DNA from: Ianthella basta
Lineage: Eukaryota > Porifera > Demospongiae > Verongiida > Ianthellidae
Direction: 5' to 3'
Length of the DNA stretch: 64,000 nt
Assembly (NCBI GenBank): GCA_964019415.1
Contig: OZ025870.1
Location: 4,176,908-4,240,907 of the forward strand
Within the stretch, counting starts at the first letter, position 1. Every line of letters starts with the position of its first letter. Both the position numbers and the translations under genes were made by a program. Positions 22,361 to 49,753 of this stretch are shown piece after piece. Under the pieces are notes generated by a model. That model did not search any database and was not told the origin of the DNA. It was given only the letters and a program-made list of their open reading frames with translations.

Positions 22361-22425
22361 GCTAGTTAGTAATTCTAAAATCTACCGTATGAAGTAGATG
22401 CAGCACTCCTGTTGTCATATAAAAT

Positions 22426-24940: not shown

Positions 24941-27493
24941 TCACAGTGACAGCTTCAGTGCACGAAATTTCCCCGCCTCATCATCATTACCATACTCGTA
25001 TGCAATGTTTTCCAATTGTTCATAATTCCATCTAAGGGCAGGGTGGGAATTCCCTCGGATACGCATCTTAAGTGTCAGCGATTGCTCAATGTACTGCTTT
25101 GCCTCCTCCAGCTGTCCCAAATGAATGCATACCAACCCCAATTTGTCCAAGACAACCGCGTTCTGTGGGTGCCCTGGTCCAAATCCTACCTTTGACATTT
25201 TAGTCTGCTCTGCACTTATTTGAAGGACATCACAGGCCTCTTTATACCTGCCTTGCTGAATGTAGCATTCCCCACGGAAAAAATGAATGAGAGGGATAAT
25301 TGTATCCTCACGAACTTCCACTGGGAGTCTATCATTCATGTTCTGTGCCCCCATTAGCACTATCAAAGCCTCCTCACTCTTATCCAGTTCCAGGAGTACC
25401 CTGCCTTTGGTCATCATGCTAAATGCAATCATTGGGTGCAAGTCCCCATACAGTCGATGGCCCATATCAACAGCCCTGTCAATAAGAAGGCTAGCCTTGC
25501 TTACATCTGGCTGTGGCCCATCTAACAGTAGGTCTGTCAGTGTTCGCAGCACCTGGCAATTGTGGTGGGATGGTGTTGCACCCACTCCACAGGCCCTCAG
25601 GAGCTCATCTATAAGAGAGGGGTCATAACGTGCAAGGTCTTGGTAGAGCTGTGCCCGGAGGAGGAGAGCCTCTGAATGCATCTGATTCACATTGCTATCA
25701 TCTGCCATGTCAGTCCTTCCTCTATGAAGGAGTTCAAACACTTCGTCAACATGCTTTTCAGCAATAACTAAATCACCTTCCTCCCCTCTATCCTTGAAGG
25801 CATAACCAAGGGCAATAAGATCCCCATGCAGTCCAGCAAAATTTCTCCTAAGTTGGTCTAAGTTAGTATGATCTGACTTCTTCCTGTCCTCAATGTTCTT
25901 GTGCAGTAGTTTAATGGCAGAACTAAACTCCCTAGCCTCAATGAGCTCTTTTGCATACAAGCTCTTTAGATCTATCTCTGCTGAAATGATACTTTCTTTC
26001 ATAGCTGAGGTAGTGGCGATTCCTATCTCCAATGCATTCCTAACCTCTGAGCCCTCACGGCGCAACTGCAGTAGTTTTGCAGCATACAGAGCAAAGCGAG
26101 GAACAGTGGCATCCTGAAAACCACATGACTGAACGCAGGTGCGGAAAACAGCAACAAAATGAGGAAGAAGTTGGAGCTTATCCATCACACTGTCCAGGTA
26201 GCTTGCCTTTGACTGCTGTTCAGTAGCTTCATACAAAGAACAGAGTGCTTTTATGATAGCTGACACTTTGTGCCTCGTTCCAAATTGTTGTTCAGCTGCT
26301 GATGCCGATCCTTTAAGTTGTGCACATGCACTATCTCTGAGGACAACATGTAGAACATGATGCACTGAGATTCCAGCATCACCATCCAAAAGTAAGAGGC
26401 TGTTATGGTGGATGTCCTCCTTGAATTGCACAAACAAAGCATCTTCTGTTCCCTCTTCTGGTTCATCTACAAGCAGGGCAACTGCCAGTTTCTTAATCAA
26501 TTGCAGAGGAACAGTTCCCTCCTCACAAAGCCCGAGTAGAAAGAAGAGCTCAGCATTATTGCCCTCAACTCCAATTCGCTTCACTGCTTGTTTCAGTGCC
26601 TGATACAAAGTTTGATCATAGTTGCAGTGCAAATTCTTAGGATGTCTGGGATCTGATGCATGCACATCTGCAGAATCTGATGGCAAGAGGTTCTTCTCAA
26701 GGTGAGTTTGCCAGGTATAAGATGCATCATTATCCCGCAGTGACTTCATTGTCTCAGCTGCTACAGCCAGTGATAGAGGAATGTAGGCCAGTTGCTTTGC
26801 TACATTTTGCAAGTCTTCCTCTCTGTCATCTGGAAAGAAGAGCCTAAGGAAATGAAGGCTTTCAACAGGAGACATTCCAGGTCCCAAGGAGATTTCCATT
26901 GTGCATGGATGCCTCACAGCTAGGTGATCCTGCACAGCAATAAGCAGTCTGCCACGCCCCCACCGAGTAGTATTACACTTGAATAAAGGTGACATCAACC
27001 TTTCCAGCTGGTCATAGCTAAAAGCCCCATCAATTATAACTAGCCATTCCTCCATCTTCTCAGAGGCAGGCCTTTTCTTGTACTTGTCCTTAAGTGTATC
27101 TAGTACCTCCTTCAAAAGACGATCTAGATTATGCTGGGACACCTGCTCAGTAACATGCATTAATGTTAGATCTGGATTAATCTGCTTCAAGTAGGCTGGA
27201 TTGCGCATATTCCTTAGGCTGTCACGAAGAGAACCGGCAAGCTCCGTAACTGAACCTGCCTTCCAAAAAAGAACTGGCAGGTACAGCCCATCAGGACTCC
27301 TTGCCAACCGAGCTTCAAATACAGCTGTGGCATATTCCCGGCACACTTGGGTCTTGCCACATGCAGGAGGACCAGTGAGGACAACCATTACTGGTCTATC
27401 TTTCATTTCCCCCTTAAGCAGTTCTTGGAAAGCCTTCTCAATGTTTACCTCAACCTTTCTTCTAACAACCTTGTGTACCGGTTTAGGAAAGGC
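24941..27493 (-). CDS. last exon: NB-ARC-type NTPase and TPR repeats
   Basis: 2553 nt with 850 codons before the stop. Acceptor TTGTATAG|GCC. Walker [10 protein letters not shown] (gene residues about 1229-1237), Walker B WLVIIDGA (about 1340), a sensor-like strand [12 protein letters not shown], a GLPL-like AYIPLSLA and an MHD-like [11 protein letters not shown] follow in NB-ARC order. The C-terminal 300 residues are helical repeats. The best is the pair [20 protein letters not shown] and [20 protein letters not shown] followed by HPALRW, a kinesin-light-chain/nephrocystin-type TPR signature. The Lys of the P-loop and the Asp of Walker B are present, so nucleotide binding is plausible. The single huge exon contrasts with the small exons upstream. 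Confidence 0.85.
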   Translation of the reverse strand, partial: AFPKPVHKVVRRKVEVNIEKAFQELLKGEMKDRPVMVVLTGPPACGKTQVCREYATAVFEARLARSPDGLYLPVLFWKAGSVTELAGSLRDSLRNMRNPAYLKQINPDLTLMHVTEQVSQHNLDRLLKEVLDTLKDKYKKRPASEKMEEWLVIIDGAFSYDQLERLMSPLFKCNTTRWGRGRLLIAVQDHLAVRHPCTMEISLGPGMSPVESLHFLRLFFPDDREEDLQNVAKQLAYIPLSLAVAAETMKSLRDNDASYTWQTHLEKNLLPSDSADVHASDPRHPKNLHCNYDQTLYQALKQAVKRIGVEGNNAELFFLLGLCEEGTVPLQLIKKLAVALLVDEPEEGTEDALFVQFKEDIHHNSLLLLDGDAGISVHHVLHVVLRDSACAQLKGSASAAEQQFGTRHKVSAIIKALCSLYEATEQQSKASYLDSVMDKLQLLPHFVAVFRTCVQSCGFQDATVPRFALYAAKLLQLRREGSEVRNALEIGIATTSAMKESIISAEIDLKSLYAKELIEAREFSSAIKLLHKNIEDRKKSDHTNLDQLRRNFAGLHGDLIALGYAFKDRGEEGDLVIAEKHVDEVFELLHRGRTDMADDSNVNQMHSEALLLRAQLYQDLARYDPSLIDELLRACGVGATPSHHNCQVLRTLTDLLLDGPQPDVSKASLLIDRAVDMGHRLYGDLHPMIAFSMMTKGRVLLELDKSEEALIVLMGAQNMNDRLPVEVREDTIIPLIHFFRGECYIQQGRYKEACDVLQISAEQTKMSKVGFGPGHPQNAVVLDKLGLVCIHLGQLEEAKQYIEQSLTLKMRIRGNSHPALRWNYEQLENIAYEYGNDDEAGKFRALKLSL

Positions 27494-30400
27494 CTATACA
27501 ATAAAACAAAAAGTATGTACAATGGCAACAGCATCCATATTACATATAACCTGCAACAACACAGGTACCGTGCAGACTGGTTAATATGTAGCGGTTTTAA
27601 ACATGGTTGAGGGCATGCACAGTGACTCTACTCAGACTTGTCAACCTCTACCTCTAGCCCTCATGTACCTAATAGTTACAACATGGCCATGAGTCTGATG
27701 TCTTTATTACAGCACAAGCAGTGAAGTGTCCGAAGGTATTACGAGGCTCTATACTAATGAGCTAGGCTGTTCTACCTCAAGTGAAATGAAGTAACCTAGG
27801 AAAGGATGCTTAACAAACGCAAGAATAGTACAATATTGTGTATAGATGAGCAAGACGAAGACCTACTATAAGAATATTAATGGAATGCAGACACCCGCGT
27901 ATATAACTAATTCAAGGGTTATAATAATTTTGGCTCTCAGAGTTTGTATTGACAATTACCCTTTGCCACAAATGCATTTCTTGTACCTCTGCCAAATAAT
28001 GAAATTCATGGATGCAGCTCAGTTTTACAAATTAAAAAACAATGTGACTCATCTAGTTCATGCACAACTAACGTATGTAATCTATGATGCAATATAGTTA
28101 CAAGCCATAAAACACAATAGTTCATAGTATCATGTCTTATACTACACTAGACGAATGCAAAGCATTGTGGGGTGAGCCTGAGCAGTGCATGTACTATTTC
28201 TATGGCATTCAGCAGCAAGCGACTGTGCAAAGCACTATACACAGTAAAGTATAGCTTGAATGTTCAGTAAGCATTGGTGCTGCGCAGCCATCACTTTTTA
28301 AGAAGAAAACGTGCCTGGCTTGCATAGGAATCGCGCAAGTGGATGTGTCGCAAGAGATGAAGAGGTGGCAGGGGAACTTTACTGAAGCTGGAGGGAGGGA
28401 AATCGTCGGCATACTCCATGTCTCTTCAGATAACGTTGAGCTAGAGTACAAGTGGTAAGCAGCCAACGTTCGTTCGCATAGTCGCAGCTTTCCGCAGCGA
28501 GTATAGCTAAAGTACGGATGGAATGTGGTGACGTCACATCTGGCAACGTCTGTAGTAATACATGTAGTATGCTAGCCTAATGATATGCACGATAGCGCAA
28601 CCACAATGTTTGTGGCATGCGAAATGGCCGGTATAAAAGAGATCCGAAATAGAACTATACGGTGTAGACACCCTTTACAGTCCCCTGTGCCGAAAATGTG
28701 TTGCAGGCCCACGGTGTGTCCACAAAATATTACGCCAAAGCTTTACCCCGTGGCCCAAACGGACAGCCCACTATTTATACACATCCTATTGGCGCTTCCA
28801 GCTACACTACGCACTAAGAGAACATAGTCTTTAAGACTATACTCCATGTCTCCAAGATCTAGCATGCATATTAGCCTTTGCTTGGCAACTCTCTTTTGGT
28901 TGCAGAATATTTGGCTAACCGTTAAACAAGTCTCATACAGCAATATCTTAATTATGAAACTGGTCGTATGGAATATTGCATACAGATGATTACAAAATAT
29001 AACACCTACTCAAGACTGTCACAATTTGCCATGCTAGAAGCTGTCAAAATTGCCTTTCTGTCATATGGTTCTCCCTTTCTACAGACAATAGTAATACACA
29101 AACTCCTAAAGGTGGACACTGCAAGACACTGCCTACTTCAAAATTTAAACCACATGTAGTTAGGTGTAAGCATATTGAGCTCACACTGCCAGGAAAGGTG
29201 TCACTTGTAGGGTCAGCCATGTTGGTGCCTAGGTTCTGTCATGATAGAATTAGATGGACAAAATTTGAAATTGAAAAATCGCAGTTTCACAGTAAAACAG
29301 GCTGACGGTGTCAGAGAGTCTGTGAACAGGATAGGGTTCTGCAGTAGTGCAGCATTTCACCGGTACAAGACAGAGCAGCTTCTAAACTTTGTTCCAAGTT
29401 ATAATTAGTGCAGGATTAAAAGACAACTCAGGACTAAGTTCGCTGCTGCTTCTTCACATACTTGCAATAATATTATGTGAGCTGTGTTTGGAAACTGCTC
29501 TTACTGTACAGAAAAAGTGGGATGTTCTGACACAGGTGACCACACACTGCCTTAAAAAAGGTGAAAAGACAGTTTCTTTCTTAGACTATTATCCCAATTA
29601 TATCCACATGTACCACTGCCGAAAATACCCTCCTGTGTTATAGTTATACTTGAAGAACAAAAAGGCTGATATCTGTTGACTTAGTACAAACTAGGCAAAA
29701 TGGCTATATGCAATGAAAGCTTTCATACAATGACTTAATCAGAGCGTTCAGCTTCCACTCTGACTATTTCAGGATGCTGTCCAATAATTGATGATGTCTG
29801 ATTATAGAGATCACATTCCATTTCATAATGACTATTTTGCTTGTTTGCTAATTGGCAAACAAGTTTAAAATATTTCACCCATTTACGTACGTGCAACAAA
29901 TATCTGCTTCCAAACTTACTGGCAAGGTCTTCTGAAGGATATACTCTCCATCAATGATTTTATGACTTTCTACAGAATAAGAGAGAAGAAACAGTGGATG
30001 AGCTGCACTGTAGCTAGGACATGACGGTGTTCCTATGTGTGAGATACCACAGTGTTCAGATAGAAATCATGATATTATTCCATTTCCTATTCTATTCCCG
30101 CTGGAATAATGTGCAATAATGCCTGTAAACAAGTGCTTGGATCGCCGATCATGTATTGCATAGTGATTAACAGCTGAAGGAGCATACAGTAAGAAAGTAT
30201 ACGTCGGCAGCCATTTTTAGTTGCAATTAAATTTAGTCAAATGTCAAGATGGTATATCTTGCTTTAGCTAAATAACAAAAATTATTCAGCAGAATACAAG
30301 TGGTGATTATGAGTATGCAAATGTGGTTGAACATAGTAGCTTATGCTCAACAACATTAAGTACTGCTTTCACTGCATGCCCAAAATTTTGTCGCATTCAA

Positions 30401-33400
30401 CCTATGTAGCCTGCAATTGACCTGTTTAATGAAAACCTTACAACAGTATAAATAGTATGCATGACACTTGTTGTACGTGGTACATACTGAAACATATGTC
30501 CTGACAAAAGCATCACAACTTAAGCCTAATGGCCATGCATAACAGCTGTAAAATATATCAGTAGCAGTTTGCGCCAAGGAAGGAACTAACTCAGAAAGGC
30601 GCAGCATTAGTTGGGCTGACTAACAAACCTCCTCTCAGAATACACATTTATATAGCATCCTTCAGTGTCATGAAAATTACATAATTGAGTACAGAGGATG
30701 AGGTTTGTACATAGACAAAACATGTCTGGTTATATTTACACATAAGTTTAACTTTATGCATACCACATGGCATGAAGTTTTGGTGGGAAATCAATTTTGG
30801 GGGGATTGGCAGTTTGGAGAGTAATTAATCCACCAAAGCTTCACAGCACCATGTCATCCTTATTGCATGATCCTATACTGCATAGTCTTCCTGTATAATT
30901 AATAGGACTGCAAGTGGATGTGCCAGGCCCATCATTAACATTCAGTTCACCACCAAAAGCTGCACACGAGAACAGTACGTCGCTGAAGAGACACCAAACC
31001 TGGGAGAAGAGCTGTCTGATCAGTATGTGGACGGCAATCTGAAAGATGGGTATGCTGTCTCTATGAAAATGAATGCTGTTGAGTTGTGGCTACTTGCTGT
31101 GGAACTTCGGCAGCCTTTTCCTCTACCACCATGCACATGCAAATCATTCTACAGCAGAATGTAAGCCAAAATATACATTCTTCTGACTTTCACTCAAAAA
31201 TTCAAGTCCGCTTGATAGCTATAAAAGTATTGGTATGAAGATAGTCTAGATCTGATAAAACATCAACTTGTATGCTTCACAGTCATACTTCATGGTCATT
31301 TGCAATCAAATTGAACAGATACTAGCTAAGTTCCCAGCATAGCTCAATTATCCATTTTGCTATGAATATCATTATAGCATTAAGCTTACAAACACGAAGA
31401 ATATTCTGCAAAATGTCATATTTTCAGCAATATGCCAAAATACAATGCTGCCAAGATTTCTGGCCATTACAGTGTGACATGCATATGAACACAGAATACT
31501 ACAAGTAGTTCTCTGTATATAGCATATATTATGGTAGAAGCAGGGTAGCGGGTGCTCACTTATGGAAAGACAATGGCATTGTACTCTCGATCCAGGCTAT
31601 ACTGCCAAACTCTACAGTGGTATGAAGCCTACATTTCACACTTTTCCACAATGGAGAGCTTTCAGCAAATGACGTGCCTACTTTGTAGCACAATTTAGGT
31701 ATGCAGTTGGTAACAACACCTTCACTACCAAGCTTGGGTGACCAGAATGGACCAGCCACATATGCGCACAAGCATGTACACATGTGTTCAAATGTGGTGG
31801 TTCATTCTTTTTACTTGTCGAATGCATGGTTGGTTCTGGGGGACTTTACAAAACCAATTAAGGTTTCATGCTAACAACTCACAGTTAATACCCTAATGCA
31901 AGCAACTTTGCGGGCTGCAGTATGGAACGCCTGCCTGAGATTATCACTCACATGGTGGGTGTTTAGCTACTCACCACAATAGTGCCGTAGCAATTCAAAT
32001 GACTGTGCCCCAAAGTTCTTGCTACTATGTAAGAAATAGCCCAGATCCGCTACTGTGGCCCTCTTCTTGTCCGCCCAATCAAGGAGCAAGAGTTGAACAC
32101 GATCTTGGCTGTACAGTCCCACAATTTCGTTCGTTCGGTAACTGTAGCACTTATTCCCAGCATTTTCACTCAGTGATATTACCACCTGCTCAAATTTGTC
32201 ATACAAGAGACTGTCTAGCTCTTTCCAGAATTGTGTGGACACATCTTTCAGAGACAGTTCAAGGTACTTCTGTGGAATGTTCGTGCCAAGTAAATGAGCC
32301 ACTGGAAAGGGTGAAGAAACATACAGCCAAGTGGGTTAATGCTATAAGGCTAGTATACGCAATACAGAGGGAAAACAACATAATTATATAAGCTTCCTAT
32401 CCCCTACAGTTAATTAAGAACTCTCACAATGACAGATCATTAATAGTGCCATAATAGTTTCTTTAGAAATACCAGTTTCATAAATTTCATGCTGTATGCT
32501 GTTCGGATGATTCACTAATATGCACAGCAGCTCTGTTTATAAGGCAACAATACCTCCCAAACTGCTTGTCAAGTAGTCAGAGTCTGCAAAATGGCAGCCT
32601 TTATGTGAGACCTAAGCAAATCCTGCACCAAACGAGTTTCTACAAATGGATGGTGATGTATGAAGGTCCCACCTCTACATCTGGTCCCCCCCTCCCCTCA
32701 CAACCAGTGCCAAACAGCATGACGCGCCTCCTATTCTGAAATCCATTTACATATGGGTGTTTTGCATTGAAAAAGTAGTTGTTGCACAATATTTTACATG
32801 CACCCAAAAGATAGCATGTTTTCCCTTATGCTGGCTGTGTACACAGATATCATTCCTCCAGGCTTTCAGAAAAAAACAGCCCGGTGCATTTAATTGCCGG
32901 TAAGTGCTTAGGCATAGGTCAGATCTTTTTCCTCAGGTCCGTACACATGGGGGTTTGGGGGGGAGGGGTTCAAAAAAACACACATGCCTAGGAGGTCTGC
33001 CTGAGGAACAACATCGATAAAATTTTAGCTATACAGAATCTGAGCTGTACTACTATACAGTAGTGTCACAATGGACAGTGCCACTCAAAAAAATATACAT
33101 GTCCTCAAAACCTGCATAGAAAAATGCATAGAATAACACCTGTACCAAAATGCCTGAACCGATCCGTACCGATTCATAGATTGGTTCTATCAAAGGCTAT
33201 GCATCACTTCTAGGATAACCTGGAGGAATGATTTCCAATATGCACGGCCAGCATAGGAAAAACGGGCACCATTTTTTTACTATTGCAGAAGAAACAGTTG
33301 TTGCACACGCATGATATATACAAATGAAACGCCTGTGATATGAGCCATTATAATTGTACCAAACGTCTACCATTATGTTGAAAACAAGCAAAAGGTATGT

Positions 33401-36400
33401 GCGGTGTAACATTGTATGGGATTGTAGCTTGCCTTGTTCTGGATTAGGCTGCATACTTCTGGGATGAATACTTCGACCTTGCACATGCTCCTGCACAATA
33501 AAGTTAGCAGACAAGCAAAACCCTTTGCACAACTTCATCTACATGACGTAATGAACATGCATAATACCACGGGAGACCTCTAGCTATGCATGGTAGCATC
33601 ATACCCAAGCAATCACCTGTGACTTCACCACTGTCAATAATGTCCCCTTGACACTGCTCAGCTCCTGATGGGTTATTTTCTGCTCAGAAACTTTCAATTC
33701 AGCCTTTATTTCCTGAACATGTGACAGCTGTTCATCATACTCACTATCACGCCCCTCCTTCTCTTTTCCCTTATCTCCATTTTCCTCTTCCACCTCTGGC
33801 AGGACATTTCGCTCAGACTGCATGTGGAAAAGAAGAGCCATGAATAACTGAAAGCAAGTAATTGAATATTAAGCTGTCAAGGAAAATTGTTCATAAAATT
33901 CACAAGTCATGCATGCAAAATGCAAATTTCAAAGAACGCAGTATTGTAGTATAATCTATTTTTATTGAAACAAGTATTTCTAGTTAAAAACACACCCCTG
34001 AACTCGAACTATTTCTTCTTGAACTTCCCCATGTATGTTCAATAGTTCAGATAGTTGGGGATGCAGCATTGCTAATGACCTGAAAGGTACATCACGATGC
34101 CATAGACTGTTGGGGTTGCAAGGGTTTCGAGTCTCCAGACCATGCTAGCAAGTCATCCAGTGAAAGCACTCCTACCAAATTGTCGAAATGCTTTGCTTTT
34201 GATCTACATAACATTCTGAATGAGGAATTACATGTCACTTTGTGCCTGGAGGAGAAGTGCGCTGGCTAAAAAGGTGACCCTAAGTGGTAATGCCATGACA
34301 GGCATGATTGTCTCTCATACACCAACGGGTCGTTCGACCTCTGTTGTATTTGTGGCTGTACCTCGCAGGAGAATAGTTATCAAATTTTCCTTTACAATAA
34401 ACGTGTTCTAGAAAGACTTTTGTGGGAAATTAAGCTCCACTTATCACAGACAGACATTGTAAAATGGCCACACTCAATGTTCTCTGTTTGCTAGGCTCAA
34501 AATCACCTTTCTTCGTATTTCGCCATGTATCCAAAGAGCGAAAGGTCTTACTAGAACATGTTTAAGTAATAGTATCGTAGTAGAAACCTAACTGTTCTCC
34601 TGCAGGGTACAGCCCCAATTAGCTACAACAGAGGTCGAATGACCCGTTGGCCAATAATGACAGACAAGCAAATCATGGCATTACCTCATATATGTGTAGC
34701 CTTTTAGCCAGCATGCTCTTCCTCTAGGCACAAAGTATCAAGTACATCCTCATTCAGAATGTCATATAGATAATAAGCAGTCTGCAAACATTTTGACACT
34801 TTGGTAGCGGTGCTTTCACTGGATGACTGGCTGCTCTAGAGACTTGAAACTCTTGCAAACCAAACAGTCTATCATGATGTATCTTTCAGGCCATGCTGCA
34901 TCCCCAACCATCTGTATTATTGAACATACATGGGGAAATTGCTAGCAAGTAGTTCGAGTTCAAGGGCGCCCCGGCACCCCACCACGAGTTTTTTAACTTG
35001 AAATACTTGGATAGCTACACGGAGAAATACAAAGAAAGATGATTTTGAGCCTAGCAAACAGAAAGCGTCAAGAGCTGCCATACATACAAACATGAAGCCA
35101 TACGAATATCTAAATTAGAAAACAATGTAGGGGCGACTTCCCAAAAATGCTACACTCATGTGTTATGTTCATGTACAATCTCACTCAATCCCGCCACTTG
35201 TTTTCCGTGAACTACACAATACTTGTGCTCTTATATGCAGCAGAATATAATGTGATAAACAAATGAAATGGGACAGTAGCCCCCTTATATCTATAGCATA
35301 ACAGATAGACGAAAGAAAGCTGGTGTACACTTTCAAAAGAAATTGCATAAACCTAGAACAAACAGCTATAGGGCTGTCAATGGCTACCACATGACTGTCC
35401 AACATAAAGGGACATACAGGGCACAAATGTATTGTACTTTGACAGCTTTTGGACAATAACACATGTGGGGACCCTCCACTAATCCATTACCAAACTTAGT
35501 ATACATCAAGAACTAGCAGGGCGCCCACCTTCGGCGGGCTTCTGCTTTGGTGAGTCAGGCCCAGGCTGATTCGAAGAATCTGCGCTGTTAGCAACAAAGG
35601 GTAGCTGCTATAATGACGACCAAGTTTTAAACTTCGATCGTCGGACGACAGTGAATCAAACTGCCAGATAACCAGAAGTCAATGAGCGATAATTAAGAAA
35701 ATGGCCATCAGCCACGAATGAAAACTGGAAATTGAAAGATATCTCTTCAGGAACTGCAAAACTCGCAATTTCAACTCGTGGCGGACACTTCTGGAGCCCC
35801 ACTTCATAATCCCTGAGAGTTTGGTGGCGTTCTGTTCCGTAGTGTTTGCGGCAAAAGCGAACAAACAAACAAACAGACAAAGGAACTGAATTATATATAG
35901 ATCCATGGCGGACAGTCACAGTCAATCTTTTCACACTGTACCTTTGCAGGCAATCCCACTCCGGTGATGTATCTGTATCTGACTCTTCCTGGTCTGTACT
36001 CCTCTGCCTCCCTCACAGTGGTCATCTCTGGAGACTGATGTAGGAGCCACTGCTTACAGGACTCCTCCTCCTCCACCTGGACACTGTCTGCCAGCCAACG
36101 CTGATGGTAGCGGGTGAATTGATCTAGTTGTAAAGCCGGGACTACAGCCTGCATGGAGTGCAAACAGGTCCATTGAACATTTTATGTATCTAACTACCTA
36201 TAAGCTACACACTTTTAAGGAAAACCATGGTGTGTGGTCTGAATGCCACTGATGTCTCATTGGCCATGGACTATAGCTATAGAGTGAAGGAGTGTGGTGA
36301 GTTGAGGTGAGTGTCTTGCATTAATTGTCCATAGTCTCGTTCACATGCATGCAGTCACAGCAAAGCATGCATATAAACTGCACATACATACCACAGTGAC

Positions 36401-39400: not shown

Positions 39401-42400
39401 GCTGCAACCGTTGACTGGGGAGAGTCTGCAACTAAGAACTGCCAATTCAGAAGAAGGTGCACGGCTCGATGTAAGTGCGCAAGGTTTTTGGGGGGAGAGA
39501 CATCAGCGTGCATTCTTTGACGTCAGGGTTTTTAACCCGTATGCACCAAGTAACTGCAAGTCGACCCAAACCGCTGCGTACAGAAGGCATGAGAATGAAA
39601 AGAGAAGAAGTTACCAGCAGCGAATACTGGAAGTTGAGCACGGATCCTTCACCCCGTTAGTCTTCTCAGCAACAGGTGGCATGGGCCCTGCAGCACGCGT
39701 CACCTATGGGAGACTAGCCTCTCTTCTAGCAGAGAAGAGGTCCTTGTCATACCACCAGGTCATCACCTGGCTGCGCTGCCTACTAAATTTCTCTCTGCTG
39801 AGATCCACAATCATGTGCATCCGAGGTGCACGATCAACCTCAAATGGACCAAGCAGATCAGCTGTGCGCGTTAATTCACTCGACCTAGCAGCCTGCACAC
39901 ACGCGGATGTGCGGCCCAGCTGCTAGATGACTTCCAGTACAGTATAACAGAATTATGAGTTACTTATTTTACCATATTATGTTTTGTTTCTTTGTTTTCA
40001 ACCACCATTCATGTACAAGTATTATCATTACAATGTCATACCTTACCTTAAATACCTGTATGGCAGTGCGCATGTGTGCCTATATACTTGTTTAATTATT
40101 TATTCACGCCAAAAGGCGTCATGAGTGAGTTTGCGCGTAACCGCGGATGACACCTTTTGGCGTCACATTGGACTCGTCCGAATTTCGAGCATTATTTTAG
40201 TCGAGGAGCCTCCGAACGGAACGTTGCTTTCCGTGTACCCGAACCGGTGCCAGAGTTTTCTGTCAACGCCCTTATCTGGTCTCCAGGTTGCACCTGTTGC
40301 GCGCAAGCTGCTTCCGAACAGTACGCAAATTTTTCGGGCGTCTTCGTCGACGGAAGGTAAGCGAACTTTACATTCCCACTGATAACAACGCAGTGAAAGC
40401 GGCTACTACAATGAATACTTCAAATAACCCTAAAATAGGATGACTGAAGAGCCTTAAAGGTCCCGTTTGACTGGGCTGCAAGTCTTGGCTTTGCTGAAAG
40501 CGGAAGAAGAAGGAATGGAGGACACCATTTTCTGTGAAGATCCTCGGAAGGGCACGAGAATGATCGTCGACCTTCCTGGAACATAGCTTCAGGCTGCGAC
40601 CAATTGTTCACCACCTCTCCGGGCAAGAGAAGGCTCCAGCAGGTGCGAACACGAGGTGCACTGAATTCGCACGTGCGCTGCCATTCTAATTTCGCCACTC
40701 GTGACAGCGCGCGCGATTTAAATGCCGCGGCTAATGGGTTAAGTAATAATGTAGTCATAAATCATCCATTATGTAATTGTGGATGGCAACTTTAGAAGCC
40801 ATAATGGGGGAGAGGGAGGATTCACAATTGCAAGTGCATTTCATAGGCTATGCAATGATGCTATGAAAAGAAAATCATTATGTCGCCTCCATGCATAGCA
40901 CCTATATACAATACTAACACACAGTTTTCTGTTAGCTACCTCAGCTGGTCTCCGGATTGCGTGTGCTTGAAACACATAATATAATCAGCTGCTAAGGTTT
41001 GTCTGACGGTGCATTCCATCTTCCAGAGGCCTCAGGTAGGTACATTAGGGAGGCTTTCAGTACATAATTTATTCACGTTTACCAAATCCTTCCCTGGCAA
41101 ATGCAGTCAGTGAGAAAAGATCGCCAAGGAGAATCATTGCTCTTCTGCTCTACACTTGTATTGCACGTAGCTGGTTTCGTTCAGCAGATGCGACGATTCA
41201 ATCGCTAAACTTCGGAGGCATTTTGCACCACGGTTGACAACATACAAAATGGCTTCGGTAGCTCCTTCACTTTCTTATCCGCGCTGGAGCCGAATGTTGC
41301 TGTTTTTGCAATCCCATTGTTCCGAACTGAAATAGGGTGAAGTGCAGACAAACGGAGCTGGCAGAATACACAGCGCAAACCCCTAAATGCTGCTAAGAAT
41401 ACAGAATGCAGCCAAGAATACGGAATGCCCTAAGAATACGGAACGGTGCCAAGAATACGGAACACAGATACTCAGGCTTAGCTTCATTATATATAGGATT
41501 ATATATAGGATTCTAACTTCTTGTTTCTAATTCCCACTTACGTACACTTTCAATCCTCATCTTCCCATCCCAATTTACCTTAATCCCCATTCCCATCCCT
41601 TCTAGTTCACTGTACACATTCTTCTGTAAACCTAAACCCTACATACCTTGTCTTCTACATCCACGAGTTGCTTCACCAGGCACTGTACCACTGACTGGCT
41701 ACCCTTTGCTGAAGCTTGCAGCATTGCCATAGCAACAGGGTCTGATGTTGACAGGCTCTGTGTGAAAAATGCATGTAAAACGAGAGTGAGAAAATGAAAA
41801 TATGAACACACAATATAAGTTTCAAGAGAGAGAAGTATGCTGCAGGTGCAAAACAAACAAAGTATATAAAGAATCCAAATTACATACCTGAGTGATCATT
41901 GCCATGTCATGGTCATATTTCTCAGTCTGCTGAATCAGCTTTTTCTGCAGAGCACTCATCTCAGATTCTAGATCATCCACATGCATTGTCTGAGCATCCA
42001 CATCTCTTACTGCGAACTGGGCCTCTGGTTCTGGAGGAGGCAGCAGTGGATCACTTGTAGAGGACAGAGACGTGTAGGGACTGGAAGGCAGATCCACCTG
42101 TAGTAATAGATGTCTGGATCATGCACAGCACCCAGATGGCTGTGCATGTGTCTTCTCACCTGTGACCTCAGCACTGGCAGCAATCTCTCCTCAAGGTTAG
42201 CCATCTCTTGGCGGACACGGCCCTCCTCCATTTGACTGGCCTTCAGCTTGAGCTCCAAGGCTGTATTATTATAAATTAGTTCTTCCCTCGTTTGCTCATA
42301 TTTCTTTAATTTATCTTCTAACTCCTGGACTCGAGACCGCAGCTCAATGTCATCAGCCACTGACTCAATTCCTTCACTCTTGGTTTCCTCTTCCCCTTTC

Positions 42401-45400
42401 ACCTTTGGAATATAAATATGTATGATTACATGTCTACTGTGGGCAGTGTATATATTCAACCACAGAACTGATCATGAAGAGGAATAAGGATTGCAAAGCA
42501 AGTCTGTTTTCATTTCTACCATTTGTACGCATACAAAACTTACAGATTCTGTGGGAGGCTGCTCATCCACTGATTCTTGTCCTGCATCTGAGAGATTGGC
42601 TTCAGCTCCAACATTATCTGAGTGGGCAAATGACAAGGCAAATAGTGCAGTACAAGCATATCACAAAGTCTTAGTGGAACAAGTTTATATTAACTAAAGG
42701 TCAGAAGGGGTGCATGAAGGCACATTGTGTGTACGAACCGTGTGATTGCAAGTGCTGAGCAATCATTCTGGTACCAAGTGGACGACCAGATGAAGGTTCC
42801 TGTGGAAGGAAACCCAGCAATAACTTTTATTAATCATAGTGAGTCCAAGAATTGTCACTCACTGCCCCACAGCGAAGTGGACATTTTTTGTCAAAGACGC
42901 TTTACTTGCTGACTAATGATGCCAGTATACAGTACATAGAAATGGTGCAATACCATCGTATATAATTTATACATGGGAACTGCTCATATATAATTAATAT
43001 ATACATGGGAACTGCTGGCTAGCAAGGACACACAGTAACCTATATACCTTGGTGCCTGGATCAACCAAACAGTGCATCTGATATGGGAGGATCTGTGGAC
43101 ACGAAGGCATTATGTATTTCAATCAAGCTGATAAGGTAGCAAAACTGTTTTGGGCAGAGCATGATGATTACTGAAAATATGCTGACATGCTTAACCTTGT
43201 GCATGTCTCTAAACCACACTTGAAGCCATACCTCTGTCACTCCCAGAAGGTCAGCAGTGAAGGGCTTGCTTTCCCTCAGCAGTGTCAAGAAGCAGTTCAC
43301 AGAAGGTTTGAAGGTGAACCCTGACATGGCCACCTCAATGACGTCTAGTTCCAGGAGTATCCAAACGGTCTCCAACTGAGTGCTGCGCTGCATTATAACG
43401 TAGGTGAACCCATTGGGAATACGGAAGGTGACAGTTGTGCTCTTAATATCCACTGCTTTGAGGCAGCTAATCTTCTCTGCGGGGATGCCAAAAGTTTGGC
43501 TGAGGACACGAACTTGGAGATGGTGACAATCCTCATAAGTGAAGTCAGTGAGAGATTTTGATGAAGTAATTTCCAGTAGAGCAAGTTCACTTTCTGCGAC
43601 AACCTGTCTACCTTCATCCTTGTTCTCGGATTCCTTCCTCTTATCAATATCATCTTTCAGCAATGTGGCCTTCTCGTAAGTGTTCAGGTGAAGATTGTAG
43701 TGTGAAAGGATGGCTTCAGCAACTTCCCGTTCTAGGGCCTTAGGGGGGATTGCATCCACAGCTTGTTGCAGGAAACTTGTATCATTCCATTTAGCTTCGA
43801 TTGACATTTGGCTGAGGAGATCGCTGACAGATTCTGCAGATTGAATATCACTTCGCTTTACTTGTTCTTCGCCTTCATGGAGGCCTAGTCGAAGGTAAAA
43901 ATTAGCTGCTTTTTTCACTTCATCCAGGTGGGGCTCCAACAGTCGTATAATGCGGGAAGTGGCATTATGATAGAACAGACGAATTGCTCGATCACATTTA
44001 GTTCGTAAGCTCTTCATATCTTGTCTCACTAGATCCATTTTCATCTTCATGTATTCGTCCATTGTCCTCTTCTCGGCAGGACAAGATGGGAAGTCTCCTG
44101 AACTTGCAGATGATCTAGATCGCTTCCTCTTCAACACTACACGACAAGACAAGGAATGTGTGTCATATACTGAAAAGTGCAAATCTTGAGTACGTGTGGA
44201 TGAAATGGGGCATGCAAGGTACCATGAACATGCAACCATGTACATACCATAAGTTTAGAATACACGACATACAAAAGGCACATTTACACCAAGTGGGTCC
44301 AAGGTGGGATAGAAGCAGGTTAAATTATAATTAGGTCATTTGAACGCTGTAACAAGCGTGAGGTACTGTCTCTGTTGTTGTTGACAAAAGCACTGCATGG
44401 TCAATCTTCTAGGAGCTACTCTACTTTACACTCATACAAATATACACTATATTACAGTGTTCACATCAATAGTTTGATTGAATTTACGTGTTCTTTGATA
44501 TTGACATAATTCAATGAAAATTGCTACATAGAAGTGCTCTTGAAACTCACCGGGAAGGTAGATAAGAAATATACTTGTTAAGACTGTGAACAAGACAAAG
44601 TTAGTCTAAGTTTCATAATGCAGCTACCATGGATAAGTATTATAAGATGGCAAACCACCTGTCAGAAAAATCATAGGAACAAGGAGGAGGGCCGGTCCAT
44701 GCAAAGAGGAGGGCCAGCCTGTCCACGCAAAACCCAGATCATTAACATTCACTGACTTTGAATACATTTGCACCATCCCTACATCTGGCAACAGTTTGCC
44801 GGGCCTCCTGCTAGTTACTGCGTAACCACTCCGAATATTCAGTTTCCCCTACAGGTAAAGCCTTACAATTTGCCCATGTCTCTGCTTTGCTGTGCACTAT
44901 CTTCTCTTTCCACTAGGTGCTCCCTGCAAATTGCTTGCTACTCAATCTACTTTGCTGTGCTCTAGAATCTAGGACCTCTTACTCTTACAATTCTTTATGT
45001 GTTTCCATGTAATTATCAGCTGCAGGCTCCATATTCTTTGGGTTAATTCATCTCTTATGTAGCCATCTTGCTCTGCCATGAGACCCCAGCAAACCACTAA
45101 GTGCAACTGCAGTGGCAATACTTACCATAGCTGTTCGCTACATTGCTGTGTGCAAACCACCACACCCATGCACTTTCATGCCCACACTGTTTAGCTCTAG
45201 GCCAGCGCAAACATCGTACACTCCACTGCCAAAGTTTGTGAAGTGCAACCTTCATAATACATATATCCTGGTAGCTATATAGTGTCTTACAGTATACCAG
45301 AACACACCTGTACATATGCCTGCGCCACTGTATATGATTTTTCTGCCAGGTGGTTTTGTAGCGGTGTCGTCAGCATCACGGGATACCATGCGAGTGACGT

Positions 45401-48400: not shown

Positions 48401-49753
48401 ATATGCATAAATGACCTATGTAAGCCATTCATCCAACTATGACTGGGGTACTTCACGCTCACCAGTCACTATATGAAAACAGTTCATAACATTAGATACT
48501 ACACTCCTCGCTTGGCTCACACAGTTTATCTTATGGTTCTCAGTATACATTACCAATTGAAACAATTCAGTCCCATTCAGATTCAATTCTAAGCCTTAAT
48601 CAAACTGCCTATGCATTAGTGGGTGAATATGGATCATTCATAATCAAATGGTTGATGATATGGTTGGCTTCGCTGGCACTTTAATACTCTGTAACTGAGA
48701 GCTGAACAGAATTAGTCCAAGATAACCGTCAGTCCCAGACCCACAGAGCATGTGTTAGTTTGGGAACCAGACAAAGAAAATAACAGGAATGTACTAATTG
48801 CCCCAACCCAAACAAATCTCTCCCCTTCCCCTCCTGAATCGGATTATGCCTCAATAACATTAAACCATTTAGTCTCCAAACTTGCCATCCAGACATATTT
48901 TGAAGCCGCAGGTTATTAAGTTACACATAAAATCAATAGTTCATCTCACCTGGCACAGGTACATAAACAATCCTTGTTCCCCCTTCTCCTTGCACCTGTC
49001 CTCCTTGGAAGAGCTGAAGAGACATGTTGCTGCCTCCTTCCATAGGGTACTCAATGGCTTTCAGACCAGATTGATCTACATAGTAGTGCAATTGTAATAC
49101 ACTGATGAAAATAGCATAAACATAGCAGTGAATCAACTACTAATACATGTACATACGTAATGACATTCATATACATAAATGAATATTATTATAGGCAATT
49201 GTACAGATTGAGCAACACCACTAAAAGTCTCCCCGTAAGGAGTGACACCTCCTACCTATACAGAGAATAGAGGCGGTCATTCTTGCTACTGCAGCGATAA
49301 ACCAAACACACTAGTAAAATATGCTAGAATGCAGTTGTGTGTAAAATCCATACACATCCATGCATGCACATATATCACTATGTCTGCAAACATCCTAGAG
49401 TACCCAAATAAACCAACATTTTATCTTCATGACAGTTCTGTACCATTTGCTTTGTGATATTCTTCAAATTGGCAAGCAGATTCTTCAATCTTGTCCGCCC
49501 ACACTTCATTACCGCTCTCCTTGAGCATCTTCAGAAATGTGTCAAACTCCTTGTTACCTTTTCCCCGCAAGATGCCAATGATCCTGCCAACTCGTTCACA
49601 CTTATCCTCTGCCCCCTCCACACGCATCCTCTCTGCCTCTGTCATGAACCCTCCTGCAGGCCTTTCCAGGCGACCAACAAGGTCCGCCATACCCAGATTC
49701 ACCTTCAGCTCATTCTCCAAGCTGACCAGAGCATACTTCTTCCAGCTGTCCAT
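24941..49753 (-). CDS. CARD-ankyrin-Death-NB-ARC-TPR receptor-like gene (20 coding exons)
   Basis: Joining the exons listed separately below (49753 down to 24941) gives 6120 nt, about 2039 residues, with every junction in matching phase and no internal stop. Order by rough residue: CARD 1-100, linker, region of unknown family 146-447, acidic linkers, coiled coil 508-588, ankyrin repeats 659-794, Cys4 finger-like exon 795-833, basic/Trp region, Death domain about 1085-1170, NB-ARC-type NTPase 1190-1560, TPRs to 2039. CARD and Death domains recruit death-fold adaptors; NB-ARC is an ATP/ADP switch; TPR and ankyrin repeats bind ligands or scaffold. The predicted product is a cytosolic STAND-type sensor comparable in logic, not in exact architecture, to APAF1 or NLRs. 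Exon joins are by eye, and alternative first and last exons suggest isoforms. Confidence 0.7.
27960..27988 (-). CDS. 29-nt microexon linking Death domain to NB-ARC
   Basis: ATTTGGCAG|AGGTACAAG...CAAAGG|GTAATT. Its 29 nt convert the phase-1 end of the Death exon into the phase-0 start of the NB-ARC exon (VQEMHLWQR), which no direct join could do. It also accepts the phase-1 end of the candidate internal first exon at 28383-28419. Short size makes this a by-eye call, but both splice signals and both phases agree. Confidence 0.55.
28383..28419 (-). CDS. candidate internal first exon (short isoform)
   Basis: ATG at 28417-28419 starts [12 protein letters not shown] and reaches donor A|GTAAAG in phase 1, which fits the 29-nt microexon. 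A transcript starting here would encode only the NB-ARC and TPR part, without CARD, ankyrin or Death domains. The open frame would run on for 30 more codons if unspliced. No promoter element can be proved. Confidence 0.3.
29735..29847 (-). CDS. candidate alternative terminal exon after the Death domain
   Basis: CAATTAG|CAAACAAG opens a frame in the phase left by the Death exon and ends after 37 codons (…[11 protein letters not shown]) at TAA 29735-29737. Using it would give a protein that stops after the Death domain, lacking NB-ARC and TPR. The acceptor has a poor pyrimidine tract. Confidence 0.3.
30906..31161 (+). CDS. orphan plus-strand exon-like ORF
   Basis: Between ATTAATAG| and |GTAAGC an open frame of about 85 codons includes [20 protein letters not shown] and [19 protein letters not shown]. 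Composition is protein-like, but I recognise no family and see no partner exons on this strand. It may be a transposon-derived exon inside an intron of the minus-strand gene. Confidence 0.3.
31975..32301 (-). CDS. Death-domain exon
   Basis: 327 nt, acceptor TTTCCAG|TGGC, donor TGTG|GTGAGT. It encodes [20 protein letters not shown]...[20 protein letters not shown] and [13 protein letters not shown], the six-helix pattern and buried W of a Death domain (R-LL--W----...TV--L---L). In known proteins this domain pairs with other Death domains, for example FADD/MyD88-type adaptors, caspase platforms or kinases. It lies immediately N-terminal to the NTPase in the spliced product, which is unusual because CARD sits at the other end of the same chain. 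Confidence 0.75.
33433..33490 (-). CDS. short linker exon with GC donor
   Basis: ATTGTGCAG|GAGCAT...GAACAAG|GCAAGC. It encodes [19 protein letters not shown] in phase 0 to 1, exactly matching its neighbours. The donor is GC rather than GT, in the usual AAG|GCAAG context tolerated by the major spliceosome. Confidence 0.6.
33617..33817 (-). CDS. acidic, coiled-coil-prone exon
   Basis: 201 nt (67 codons), ACATGCAG|TCTGAG to GTCACAG|GTGATT, phase 0/0. The product is highly charged ([20 protein letters not shown]) and then heptad-like ([18 protein letters not shown]). It resembles in style and ending (…SQ|) the coiled-coil exon at 42160-42402 and may derive from it. No catalytic features. Confidence 0.6.
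33973..35070. mobile_element. inverted pair of a palindromic DNA transposon
   Basis: The right member has terminal inverted repeats CTCTGTTTGCTAGGCTCAAA at about 34482-34501 and their complement TTTGAGCCTAGCAAACAG at about 35044-35061, some 580 bp apart. Its interior (34545-35015) is the reverse complement of 33973-34440, an adjacent copy lacking its terminal repeats. Matching pairs include GTTCTAGAAAGAC/GGTCTTACTAGAAC and CCCCATGTATGTTCAATA/TATTGAACATACATGGGG. No transposase is encoded, so it is non-autonomous. It lies in an intron of the receptor-like gene. Confidence 0.75.
35514..35600. repeat. C(TTCG)G hairpin short element
   Basis: ACTAGCAGGGCGCCCACCTTCGGCGGGCTTCTGCT...GAGTCAGGCCCAGGCT is the reverse complement of the intronic insert of array units 2-5 (…GCAGAAGCCCGCTGAAGGCGGGCGCCCTACTAGT). 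Its core is a stem closed by a CTTCGG loop. Confidence 0.75.
35942..36148 (-). CDS. exon of receptor-like gene, unknown region with GVGLPAK end
   Basis: 207 nt (69 codons), ATGCAG|GCTGTA to CAAAG|GTACAG, phase 0/0. The product [20 protein letters not shown] continues with an acidic EEEE patch and ends [14 protein letters not shown] do not recognise a family. It follows the basic Trp-rich exon and precedes the acidic exon at 33617. Confidence 0.6.
36437..36473. repeat. (CA)n microsatellite forming a splice donor
   Basis: An imperfect CA/CGCA tract on the plus strand. On the minus strand it begins GTGTGTGTG right after the exon, so the 5' splice site is part of the repeat. Confidence 0.8.
36474..36681 (-). 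CDS. basic Trp-rich exon whose donor lies in a microsatellite
   Basis: 208 nt, acceptor GCTGTGTAG|GGC, completing an AGG Arg codon with the previous 38-nt exon ([17 protein letters not shown]). It ends [12 protein letters not shown] with donor GGTGTGTGTG supplied by the (CA)n/(GT)n tract at 36437-36473. The middle is Ser/Glu-rich. Family not recognised. Confidence 0.6.
36757..36794 (-). CDS. 38-nt exon of receptor-like gene
   Basis: CATCCAACAG|ATTGAT...CAAAGAG|GTATCG encodes [12 protein letters not shown] and leaves AG to form Arg with the next exon. The phases on both sides agree (0 in, 2 out). Confidence 0.55.
36910..37026 (-). CDS. Cys4 finger-like exon
   Basis: CATTCCAG|GTTTGC opens [12 protein letters not shown]...LILCRHC, a CX2C-X17-CX2C arrangement that could bind one zinc ion. 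It ends YIKIG before a weak donor GGA|GTAGCC in phase 0, which matches the next exon. The alternative is to read on to TAG at about 36879, which would give a truncated isoform. It follows the ankyrin exon directly. Confidence 0.5.
37784..37917. repeat. palindromic MITE (M3)
   Basis: Arms TTAAATGCTGCCCAATCGCTGTCTGCGAGGATTTAGA and TCTAAATCCTACAGAC...GGCAGCATTTAACTATTAC are inverted relatives of M2. It lies in the intron between the Cys4 and ankyrin exons. Confidence 0.75.
37969..38163 (-). CDS. ankyrin-repeat exon 3
   Basis: 195 nt, TCCTCCAG|AACTCT to GCGGAAG|GTAAGG, phase 0/0. [19 protein letters not shown] is a clear ankyrin A-helix/B-helix pattern. It is followed by [19 protein letters not shown], a second, C-capping repeat. 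Confidence 0.8.
38275..38376 (-). CDS. ankyrin-repeat exon 2
   Basis: 102 nt, CTGTGCAG|AGTGGC to AATGAAG|GTACGT, phase 0/0. One repeat: [20 protein letters not shown] (consensus G-TPL--AA--GH-D-V--L). It is typical of one-repeat-per-exon ankyrin genes. Confidence 0.8.
38513..38560. repeat. C(TTCG)G hairpin short element, degenerate copy
   Basis: ACTAGCAAGAAAGCCCGCCTTCGGTGGGCTTCCCTGCTCCGG shares the ACTAGCA start and the GCCCGCCTTCGGTGGGC hairpin with 35514-35600. Confidence 0.6.
39117..39926 (+). pseudogene. RT C-terminal fragment (zinc knuckle and nuclease region)
   Basis: One frame from [20 protein letters not shown] through the knuckle (NCVCG…[11 protein letters not shown]) to the nuclease-like block [20 protein letters not shown] and the tail [23 protein letters not shown] at 39273-39275 falls inside the knuckle, and the RT palm is missing. 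The nuclease Asp residues are kept. Confidence 0.8.
39117..40085 (+). mobile_element. 5'-truncated second copy of the REL non-LTR retrotransposon
   Basis: It begins abruptly inside the RT C-terminal third and runs to the shared 3' motif GGCAGTGCGCATGTGTGCCT at 40060-40081. Orientation is opposite to the host gene. Divergence from the 19.8-22.3 kb copy is substantial at the protein level, so the two insertions come from different lineages or times. Confidence 0.75.
40097..40168. repeat. CGCCAAAAGGCG inverted repeat
   Basis: CACGCCAAAAGGCGTCATGAG and GATGACACCTTTTGGCGTCAC face each other about 35 bp apart. It sits just after the 3' end of the truncated retroelement and may be its target or a separate small palindrome. 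Confidence 0.55.
40386..41640. other. intron of receptor-like gene, no coding exon seen
   Basis: Holds a tandem repeat near 41393-41465 and otherwise unremarkable sequence. ORFs here have no domain pattern. Confidence 0.5.
41393..41465. repeat. short tandem repeat (AAGAATACGGAA)
   Basis: Four imperfect copies of an approximately 18-bp unit AAGAATACGGAATGCC, within an intron. Confidence 0.75.
41647..41757 (-). CDS. ankyrin-repeat exon 1
   Basis: 111 nt, TCACACAG|AGCCTG to GACAAG|GTATGT, phase 0/0. [20 protein letters not shown] and [11 protein letters not shown] fit a divergent first ankyrin repeat leading into the next exon. Confidence 0.65.
41888..42097 (-). CDS. linker and second coiled-coil exon
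   Basis: 210 nt, CTACTACAG|GTGGAT to ACTCAG|GTATGT, phase 0/0. A Ser/Pro-rich start ([20 protein letters not shown]) is followed by a heptad-rich helix ([20 protein letters not shown]). Confidence 0.7.
42160..42402 (-). CDS. coiled-coil exon
   Basis: 243 nt (81 codons), phase 0/0. [20 protein letters not shown] and later [14 protein letters not shown] show hydrophobic a/d spacing over about nine heptads, predicting dimerisation or oligomerisation. Confidence 0.75.
42544..42617 (-). CDS. acidic linker exon
   Basis: 74 nt, CACTCAG|ATAATG to GAATCT|GTAAGT, phase 1/0. It encodes [19 protein letters not shown], low complexity. Confidence 0.6.
42739..42799 (-). CDS. 61-nt linker exon
   Basis: CTTCCACAG|GAACCT to CACACG|GTTCGT, phase 0/1, encoding [20 protein letters not shown]. 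The donor is weak, but the frame and both phases fit its neighbours. Confidence 0.5.
43048..43092 (-). CDS. 45-nt linker exon
   Basis: GTCCACAG|ATCCTC to ACCAAG|GTATAT, phase 0/0, encoding [15 protein letters not shown]. Confidence 0.55.
43232..44136 (-). CDS. large exon of unknown conserved-looking region
   Basis: 905 nt, TCGTGTAG|TGTTGA to GACAGAG|GTATGG, phase 1/0. A basic stretch [10 protein letters not shown] (possible nuclear signal) leads to two helical segments ([20 protein letters not shown] and [20 protein letters not shown]). An alpha/beta-looking block follows: [53 protein letters not shown]. The last block resembles a repeated theme I associate with uncharacterised sponge proteins, but I cannot name a family. 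It sits between CARD and coiled coil. Confidence 0.75.
44646..45356 (+). repeat. MITE-like dispersed repeat (copy C), interrupted
   Basis: It begins GGCAAACCACCTGTCAGAAAAATCAT and ends with the inverted form ATGATTTTTCTGCCAGGTGGTTT, so it has terminal inverted repeats. The right repeat is split by the LTR element at 45357-46727 and resumes GCCATGCCCC at 46732. The interior matches copies A and B. Confidence 0.7.
45357..45555 (+). repeat. 5' LTR
   Basis: TGTAGCGGTGTCG…CGACGCTATA. The ends TGTAGCG and CGCTATA are nearly inverted copies of each other. Same length and sequence as the 3' LTR. Confidence 0.9.
46529..46727 (+). repeat. 3' LTR
   Basis: Identical to 45357-45555 by direct comparison of all 199 positions. 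Preceded by the polypurine tract and followed by target duplicate GTTT. Confidence 0.9.
46835..46959 (+). CDS. orphan plus-strand exon-like ORF with CX2C…HC
   Basis: AAATTTCAG|ATGGGC to CTAGG|GTAAGC, 125 nt, encoding [19 protein letters not shown] then [15 protein letters not shown]. The splice signals are good and the composition is protein-like, but no partner exons were found. It may be a captured or ancestral exon stranded in this intron. Confidence 0.35.
47056..47080. repeat. poly-G tract
   Basis: A near-continuous G run with one A, within an intron on the minus-strand gene. Confidence 0.85.
48166..48300. repeat. direct repeat, left copy
   Basis: AATGGCATTCATACACATAAATGAATATCATTATAGG...GATTGAGCAACACCAC...AAGGAGTGACATCTCCT...GAGGCGG recurs at 49155-49275 in the same orientation with about 10-15% differences. 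Confidence 0.75.
48950..49075 (-). CDS. linker exon after CARD
   Basis: 126 nt, ACTATGTAG|ATCAAT to GTGCCAG|GTGAGA, phase 1/1. It encodes [20 protein letters not shown] and a Gly/Gln-rich end. No domain is recognised; both phases fit. Confidence 0.65.
49155..49275. repeat. direct repeat, right copy
   Basis: Second copy of the 48166-48300 repeat, in the intron just 5' of the linker exon. Confidence 0.75.
49444..49753 (-). CDS. CARD exon with start codon
   Basis: The exon spans 49444-49769 (acceptor TTTGTTTCAG|CCAC, donor AAATG|GTACAG). The ATG at 49751-49753 opens [24 protein letters not shown] features follow: a helix-1 E-L pair, the G-F-MT-AE loop ([10 protein letters not shown]), an ARR-like [19 protein letters not shown] and a closing [19 protein letters not shown]. 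An out-of-frame ATG lies 11 nt upstream in the same exon and could dampen translation. CARDs recruit caspases or CARD adaptors. Confidence 0.8.

Follow-up and report, generated by a model that had tools for sequence, protein, structure and literature searches.

The window analysed here, a stretch of 64,000 nt from the genome of the sponge Ianthella basta, carries on its minus strand a series of exons that runs from an ATG at position 49753 to a stop codon ending at 24941. The series consists of two parts. Part A (49753-35942) is a head with a CARD, an unnamed domain called MID, coiled coils and ankyrin repeats, and part B (32269-24941) comprises a death-domain-like exon, a short hinge and a large exon for a STAND-like nucleoside triphosphatase (NTPase) with TPR repeats. 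A preliminary description had read the whole as one gene of 20 coding exons and 6120 nt, joining CARD, ankyrin, Death, NB-ARC and TPR. The exons and the features between the two parts are listed below; C3, C21, C54 and C4 denote sequences of the same genome, and dN/dS is the ratio of nonsynonymous to synonymous substitution rates.

49444..49753, minus: A exon 1, ATG and CARD, 103 aa; Pfam CARD E 0.0018, family profile, dN/dS
48950..49075, minus: A exon 2, 126 nt, acceptor AG before 49075; 64-94 % protein identity in 4 of 5 head loci
43232..44169, minus: A exon 3 (MID), unnamed domain of ~300 aa; genome and database relatives, dN/dS 0.30-0.35
42160..42402, minus: A exon 4 (cc1), acidic coiled coil; 57-59 % identity in 4 of 5 head loci
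41888..42097, minus: A exon 5 (cc2), proline-rich, coiled coil; 62-70 % identity in 4 of 5 head loci
41647..41757, minus: A exon 6, begin of the ankyrin region; 70-76 % identity in 4 of 5 head loci
38275..38376, minus: A exon 7, ankyrin repeat; Ank_2 E 1.5e-15 (spliced model), conserved in 4 of 5 head loci
37969..38163, minus: A exon 8, ankyrin repeats; Pfam Ank, 74-86 % identity in 4 of 5 head loci
36757..36794, minus: A exon 9, 38 nt, required by the phase; matched by 38-nt exons modelled in two other head loci
36474..36681, minus: A exon 10 (e9); 60-69 % identity in 4 of 5 head loci
35942..36148, minus: A exon 11 (e10), conserved phase-0 splice donor at its end; GT in 6 of 6 aligned copies
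33617..33847, minus: e11, coiled-coil exon related to cc1, phase 0 on both sides, in-frame ATGs; alignment z values
32282..32284, minus: ACG where the C21 copy has ATG; codon alignment of window and C21
31975..32269, minus: B exon 1, death-domain-like, 98 aa compared; 64 % identity to C21, dN/dS 0.26
29920..29969, minus: B exon 2, hinge of 50 nt; conserved splice sites, aligned with C21 over 72 nt at 85 % nucleotide identity
24941..27493, minus: B exon 3, STAND-like NTPase (GPPACGKT) and TPR, 850 aa, stop; intact copies 62-73 % identity

The exons and the coding signal in this series are real. An exon-chaining script, with generic splice matrices and with codon log-odds derived from long frames in the window and in fetched loci, returned at strict settings 17 exons with 6069 nt for the minus strand of 24.9-49.8 kb. 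The plus strand gave 10 exons with 918 nt, and 12 shuffles did not exceed 8 exons or 705 nt, ten of them yielding no chain. A conservation-guided model had 15 exons with 5820 nt without an internal stop, or 5817 nt with exon 2 starting from the AG at 49075. The script recovered the same main exons as stop-to-stop frames combined with Pfam scans. Two of its additional exons, 39892-39767 and 35604-35529, are doubtful and had no match in five head loci; a weak match adjoins the former at 39.7-39.5 kb. The stretch around a third, 35050-34983, recurs twice in one head locus and also in a C21 intron, and is therefore probably a dispersed repeat. The exact set of 20 exons was not reproduced. The agreement in phase at every junction, which had been taken as support for a single gene, was rejected as evidence: at permissive settings, 36-136 stop-free and phase-consistent exons were chained in all 12 shuffles at each of two settings, so that the argument from phase is weak.

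Part A has 11 exons and 896-897 aa, in the order CARD, exon 2, MID, two coiled-coil exons, three exons of the ankyrin region, the 38-nt exon, e9 and e10. Ten of the 11 exons (the 38-nt exon was left out) were used as queries in a comparison with five head loci. All ten had matches on C54, with only 40 % identity for the CARD, and at C3:3.22 Mb and C3:3.55 Mb, the latter with MID split in two pieces. At C3:4.35 Mb only CARD, exon 2 and MID were matched, and at C3:6.71 Mb CARD and exon 2 were not in the fetched stretch, with a CARD match just outside. The MID exon starts later in the models of two paralogues, corresponding to position 44136 in the window. Against paralogues, dN/dS of the A exons ranged from 0.14 (CARD) to 0.71 (one ankyrin comparison); the CARD exon had values of 0.14 and 0.24 against two paralogues. 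In the genome, the CARD exon had 150 scored matches (150 of 377 candidates, introns disregarded in the search) and e10 had 27. By these sequence relatives, part A is one copy of a large, expanded head family.

The CARD exon of the window alone reached an E value of 0.0018 with Pfam CARD, under the gathering score. A family profile of 21 exons, the window's and 20 picked from the 150 scored matches, retrieved APAF1 CARD chains from the PDB sequences (best E 1.6e-5), and 19 of the 21 exons matched Pfam CARD at E 0.1 (best 2.7e-8), which bears out the CARD. The ankyrin repeats (Ank_2, 57.9 bits against a cut-off of 27.3) and the TPR repeats in B exon 3 (TPR_12, 64.8 bits against 30.1, E 8e-18) passed their Pfam cut-offs and were likewise confirmed. 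MID (window 43232-44169) is a candidate new domain family. Pfam matched nothing and PDB nothing better than E 0.056, and an attempt to name it was dropped for this reason. Its relatives comprise 113 match rows in the genome, some being pieces of one copy, and 148 in the database; among the 120 listed, the window's own included, none had a Pfam domain or a name.

The NTPase was read as NB-ARC by its motifs. Walker A, Walker B and GLPL-like motifs, as we take them to be, were read in the translation (GPPACGKT, IPLSLAV), and counterparts are present in the five relatives aligned; by these motifs the domain looks STAND-like. A match to the Pfam model was not obtained: NB-ARC (PF00931) was not among the hmmscan matches of B exon 3 at E 0.1, nor was the exon among the 10 NB-ARC matches of the genome (144 of 232 candidates scored). 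AAA_22 (E 5.5e-5), AAA_16, TniB and others matched the region, all under their cut-offs, and a profile of the NTPase retrieved from PDB at best an AAA ATPase with E 0.031. NACHT and LRR, the pair of bona fide NLRs, were not among the matches of B exon 3. The Death domain was not confirmed. B exon 1 had no match to Death (PF00531) in Pfam at a limit of E 10, at which filters drop most matches above 0.1, and its profile retrieved two PDB hits with no Death chain among them. In an hhalign comparison with 17 Death exons, picked from 150 scored Death matches of this genome, a probability of 1.8 % and an E value of 0.028 were obtained, with a co-linear alignment around two tryptophans. We infer a death-like character from the place before the NTPase, the exon length and the two co-linear tryptophans.

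Part B differs from part A in this respect. The NTPase-TPR exon has one intact full-length paralogue in the genome, on C21 (73 % identity, dN/dS 0.28), and the death-like exon has two other matches, one of them partial. On C21, the death-like, hinge and NTPase-TPR exons occur in the order and phase of the window. The dN/dS of the death-like exon against C21 was 0.26 in the frame of B, and 0.61 and 1.09 in the other two. Six broken copies of the NTPase-TPR exon on C3 and C54 start at residue 230-245, each with stop-bearing match rows; as they begin at about the same residue, they seem to come from one truncated ancestor that was amplified. Just behind the stop of B, at 24.9-24.4 kb, translated matches to the C3:3.54 Mb copy reach 89-100 % identity. 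C4 holds five distant relatives with 26-27 % identity, whose frames of 808-839 aa contain no stop. In the database, the module order of B is found in P0013, a protein of 969 aa from a metagenome contig of 3276 bases, with 33 % identity over 100 % of the NTPase-TPR exon. Seven further database frames with 62-73 % identity contain the NTPase-TPR exon alone, P0006 being nearly the C21 copy; the missing death-like part would fit a calling of frames without introns.

The part B of the window differs from that on C21 at its start. The death-like exon of C21 begins with an in-frame ATG that follows an upstream stop (ATG GCC CTT CCA), whereas the window has ACG AAC ATT CCA, one base different at the start codon, and its B frame has no other methionine before residue 30 of the NTPase exon. 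ATG is presumably the older state. The head, on the other side, has an open end. The frame conservation of e10 ends at its conserved donor, and the copies diverge behind, hence the head must continue into a further exon. A conserved last head exon was sought behind e10 and not found among six loci, where the sharing is patchy and pairwise: C54 and C3:3.55 Mb have 236 nt in common at 98 %, ~490 nt at 82 % and a block of 140 nt are shared by C3:3.22 and C3:3.57 Mb, and stretches at ~34.4-34.0 kb, which look like an interspersed element, by the window, C3:6.71 and C54. The NTPase-TPR exon itself is also among the shared stretches. The intervening exon, e11, scored best among the one-exon connections that keep the frame between e10 and B. 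Its alignment with cc1 gave z values of 7.4, 5.6, 4.7 and 4.4 for four paralogues and 2.8 for the window's own cc1, which points to an A-derived exon that may belong to A, to B or to a fusion.

The lost ATG, the donor kept in all six head copies and the in-frame, A-derived exon in between led us to propose a fused transcript, with B as the tail of a longer transcript; we put its probability at about 45 %. Also in its favour are a strong acceptor (6.0) at 32301, where the C21 alignment, loose there, has no AG, the death-like frame that is still open, with dN/dS of 0.26 against C21 (0.28 for the NTPase-TPR exon), and the phase-0 NHL exon behind e10 of another head. The only full-length intact B copy found on its chromosome is immediately preceded, on the same strand, by a head copy. 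According to this proposal, B would have been an independent gene with its own ATG, which became ACG in the window copy, and would now be read from an upstream start, the simplest candidate being the head. Splicing would proceed from e10 via e11 to the death-like exon, the hinge and the NTPase-TPR exon, yielding a product of ~1940 aa; a direct joining of e10 to the acceptor at 32269 is also in frame.

Several observations weigh against the fusion. B is known without A nearby, both on C21 and in P0013, which has 969 aa from its own methionine. In 30 kb of C21, with 10.7 kb upstream of the death-like exon, the A exons gave only an 8-residue match for e9 (E 0.85) and e11 a 41-residue match (E 0.013), and neither MID nor e10 had a match anywhere on C21. 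Upstream of B, C21 has a weak match to ZU5 (E 0.034) as well as a frame that looks death-like by eye and ends in a stop. The chaining script joins B to these ZU5-like exons just as it joins B to A in the window, therefore its chaining cannot separate neighbours from one gene. The acceptor in frame, at 32269, has a weak score of 2.45, and the strong acceptor at 32301 does not fit the frame of e10 and e11. The in-frame ATGs of e11 could start B unaided, and two AATAAA, one of them within e11, and one ATTAAA lie between e10 and B. A search with the fused model retrieved no protein with both parts among the 7997 scored candidates that shared most words. As full-length homologues four proteins were considered and rejected, which matched 6-9 % of the query and are TPR or ankyrin proteins by Pfam. 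Finally, the dN/dS values of B average both lineages since the split from C21, hence they are no proof of constraint after the loss of the ATG, and the odds of the fusion were lowered for this reason.

An alternative is two neighbouring genes, which we rate just short of an even chance. Part A would then end in a short or divergent exon behind e10, and B would start on its own, either at an ATG in e11 or with a non-coding exon ending in A that is spliced to TG at 32301. Both products would serve NLR-type pathways and no single protein would join CARD and death-like domain. B on C21 looks autonomous, as its in-frame ATG behind the upstream stop lies 1.4 kb behind the stop of another frame; a candidate acceptor 74 nt before this ATG (score 4.6) has, as read from the sequence, an in-frame stop right behind it. 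P0013 has the layout of B starting at M, ATGs are available within e11, and the hexamers between A and B are polyadenylation-like. Against two genes speak the absence of a conserved last A exon behind e10 in the six-locus comparison, the ATG that is gone from the window copy and the relation of e11 to cc1, an internal exon of A. Fusion and two genes stand level: on one side are the loss of the ATG, a donor that demands a further exon and the relation of e11 to A, on the other the autonomy of B, the ATGs of e11 and the weak in-frame acceptor.

The loss of the ATG could also mark the begin of a decay of B as in the six broken copies, with the chain not expressed as a protein. The truncated start and the stops of these close copies on C3 and C54 provide a precedent, and the dN/dS values are compatible with a recent decay. 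The 850 codons and the death-like exon of the window are, however, without stop or frameshift, dN/dS against C21 is 0.26-0.28 and the splice sites are intact, which makes a decaying locus quite improbable.

The neighbourhoods of the other e10 copies bear on the age of a connection between the parts. Among the close NTPase-TPR copies, without the five distant C4 relatives, three of eight (window, C3:3788k and C3:3536k) lie within 12 kb behind an e10 copy, and 24 of the 27 e10 copies have no NTPase-TPR copy within 12 kb behind, both counted by eye. A head tied to the NTPase-TPR part from of old is not supported by three of eight, and the low proportion is in line with two genes. With B on C21 and in P0013 without A, and 24 of 27 e10 copies without NTPase-TPR behind, the two parts are, as far as the genomic arrangement tells, evolving as separate units.

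Other tails were found behind e10. NHL matches lie 2.0 and 3.0 kb behind the copies at C3:3565716 and C3:3286407; these are recent duplicates with 95.7 % identity over 3 kb and count therefore as one NHL case. In a head other than that of the window, an NHL exon in phase 0 is located 1.3 kb behind e10. The acceptor of the NHL exon is of phase 0 and a stop closes the exon; as its open frame runs further upstream and holds ATGs, it may be a separate gene. A NACHT exon follows the e10 copies of C54 and C3:4253459. Two further e10 copies are followed by a broken NTPase-TPR copy, and 9 kb behind the copy at C3:3193248 is a long frame with a Death match. By eye, at least 7 of the 27 e10 copies, the window included, have an NHL, NACHT or NTPase-TPR tail within 15 kb on the same strand. 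Behind others, another CARD, MID or e10 copy comes first among the matches listed. These neighbourhoods fit a head-and-tail family and do not prove splicing. We consider it rather unlikely, yet worth stating, that one CARD-MID-coiled-coil-ankyrin head with a phase-0 donor is joined to NTPase-TPR, NHL or NACHT tails, creating many sensors by swapping, with the tail in the window caught when its start codon had just been lost.

If one transcript spans both parts, the product would be a receptor with a CARD, a death-like domain and two repeat types. By analogy with NLR and Apaf-1 biology, the TPR repeats, perhaps also the ankyrin repeats, would detect either a ligand or a host protein that is guarded, the NTPase would exchange ADP for ATP and oligomerise, and CARD and death-like domain would nucleate death-fold filaments that recruit caspase-type effectors. 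The fusion would be recent, with readable steps: a lost ATG, a new acceptor and a captured exon. Even without fusion, the locus presents a large head family with varied neighbours behind and with an unnamed MID of 300 aa that Pfam-based surveys would miss. A search of the open literature, with subscription papers mostly outside its scope, revealed no report of a CARD-ankyrin-death-NTPase-TPR protein. One death-fold domain and one repeat type had been assumed as the norm for animal STAND proteins; the literature is more varied, with TPR, WD40 and ankyrin types, double CARDs and Death or DED heads on record (PMC2246300, PMC6321704, PMC7642931).

Four known systems are close. Homologues of Apaf-1/CED-4 in Nematostella, amphioxus and sea urchin have heads of the CARD, Death or DED type and tails of WD40 or TPR repeats (PMC2246300). 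They resemble the window in a death-fold domain before a STAND NTPase, in the repeats behind it and in TPR taking the place of WD40, and paired CARDs are known; the accessible text of that report does not mention a head of ankyrin repeats plus MID (PMC2246300). The window differs further in an NB-ARC recognised only by its motifs and in a CARD-ankyrin head that may belong to a gene of its own. The NACHT/NB-ARC-TPR receptors of Hydra and placozoans resemble it in the combination of NTPase and TPR, the CARD or death-like heads, the lack of LRR and the many paralogues (PMC7642931, PMC6321704). In contrast, B of the window has one other intact close copy, and CARD and death-like domain would be in one protein only if A and B are fused. 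For the sponge Dysidea avara, NLRC and NLRD proteins (CARD- or DEATH-NACHT-LRR) and 39 CARD genes have been reported (PMC12909245); expanded intracellular receptors are common to both genomes, the present one having 102 scored NACHT and 150 scored Death matches, and the 150 scored matches of the CARD exon here are counted differently from the 39 genes. In contrast to these proteins, the NTPase of the window is not a NACHT-LRR protein and its CARD sits on a MID-coiled-coil-ankyrin head. P0013 is alike in the layout and the hinge of B and differs in having no CARD, MID or ankyrin repeats.

Further features lie outside the series. An open frame of 858 aa on the minus strand (19792-22365), by eye LINE-type reverse transcriptase-like, sits 2.6 kb downstream of the NTPase-TPR exon. 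A unit of ~2.07-2.1 kb occurs five times in tandem at 9264-19162, and every copy has frames on the plus strand and an 18-base minisatellite. One frame of the unit contains SGDCGLFSLAFA, which we take to resemble a C48/ULP-type protease motif, and the repeats look like a tandemly repeated gene pair of a mobile element. On the plus strand, frames resembling by eye a GIY-YIG endonuclease (431-979, CGETYIGET) and a DDE transposase (6500-7108) were noticed. A coding-looking minus-strand exon at 55640-56077 resembles leucine-rich repeats by eye and may end a neighbouring NACHT receptor, as the e10 copy at C3:4253459 and a NACHT match at C3:4247970 are located just beyond the edge of the window. The death-fold and NLR repertoire of the genome appears very large, with 150 of 377 CARD-exon, 150 of 437 Death and 102 of 469 NACHT candidates scored.

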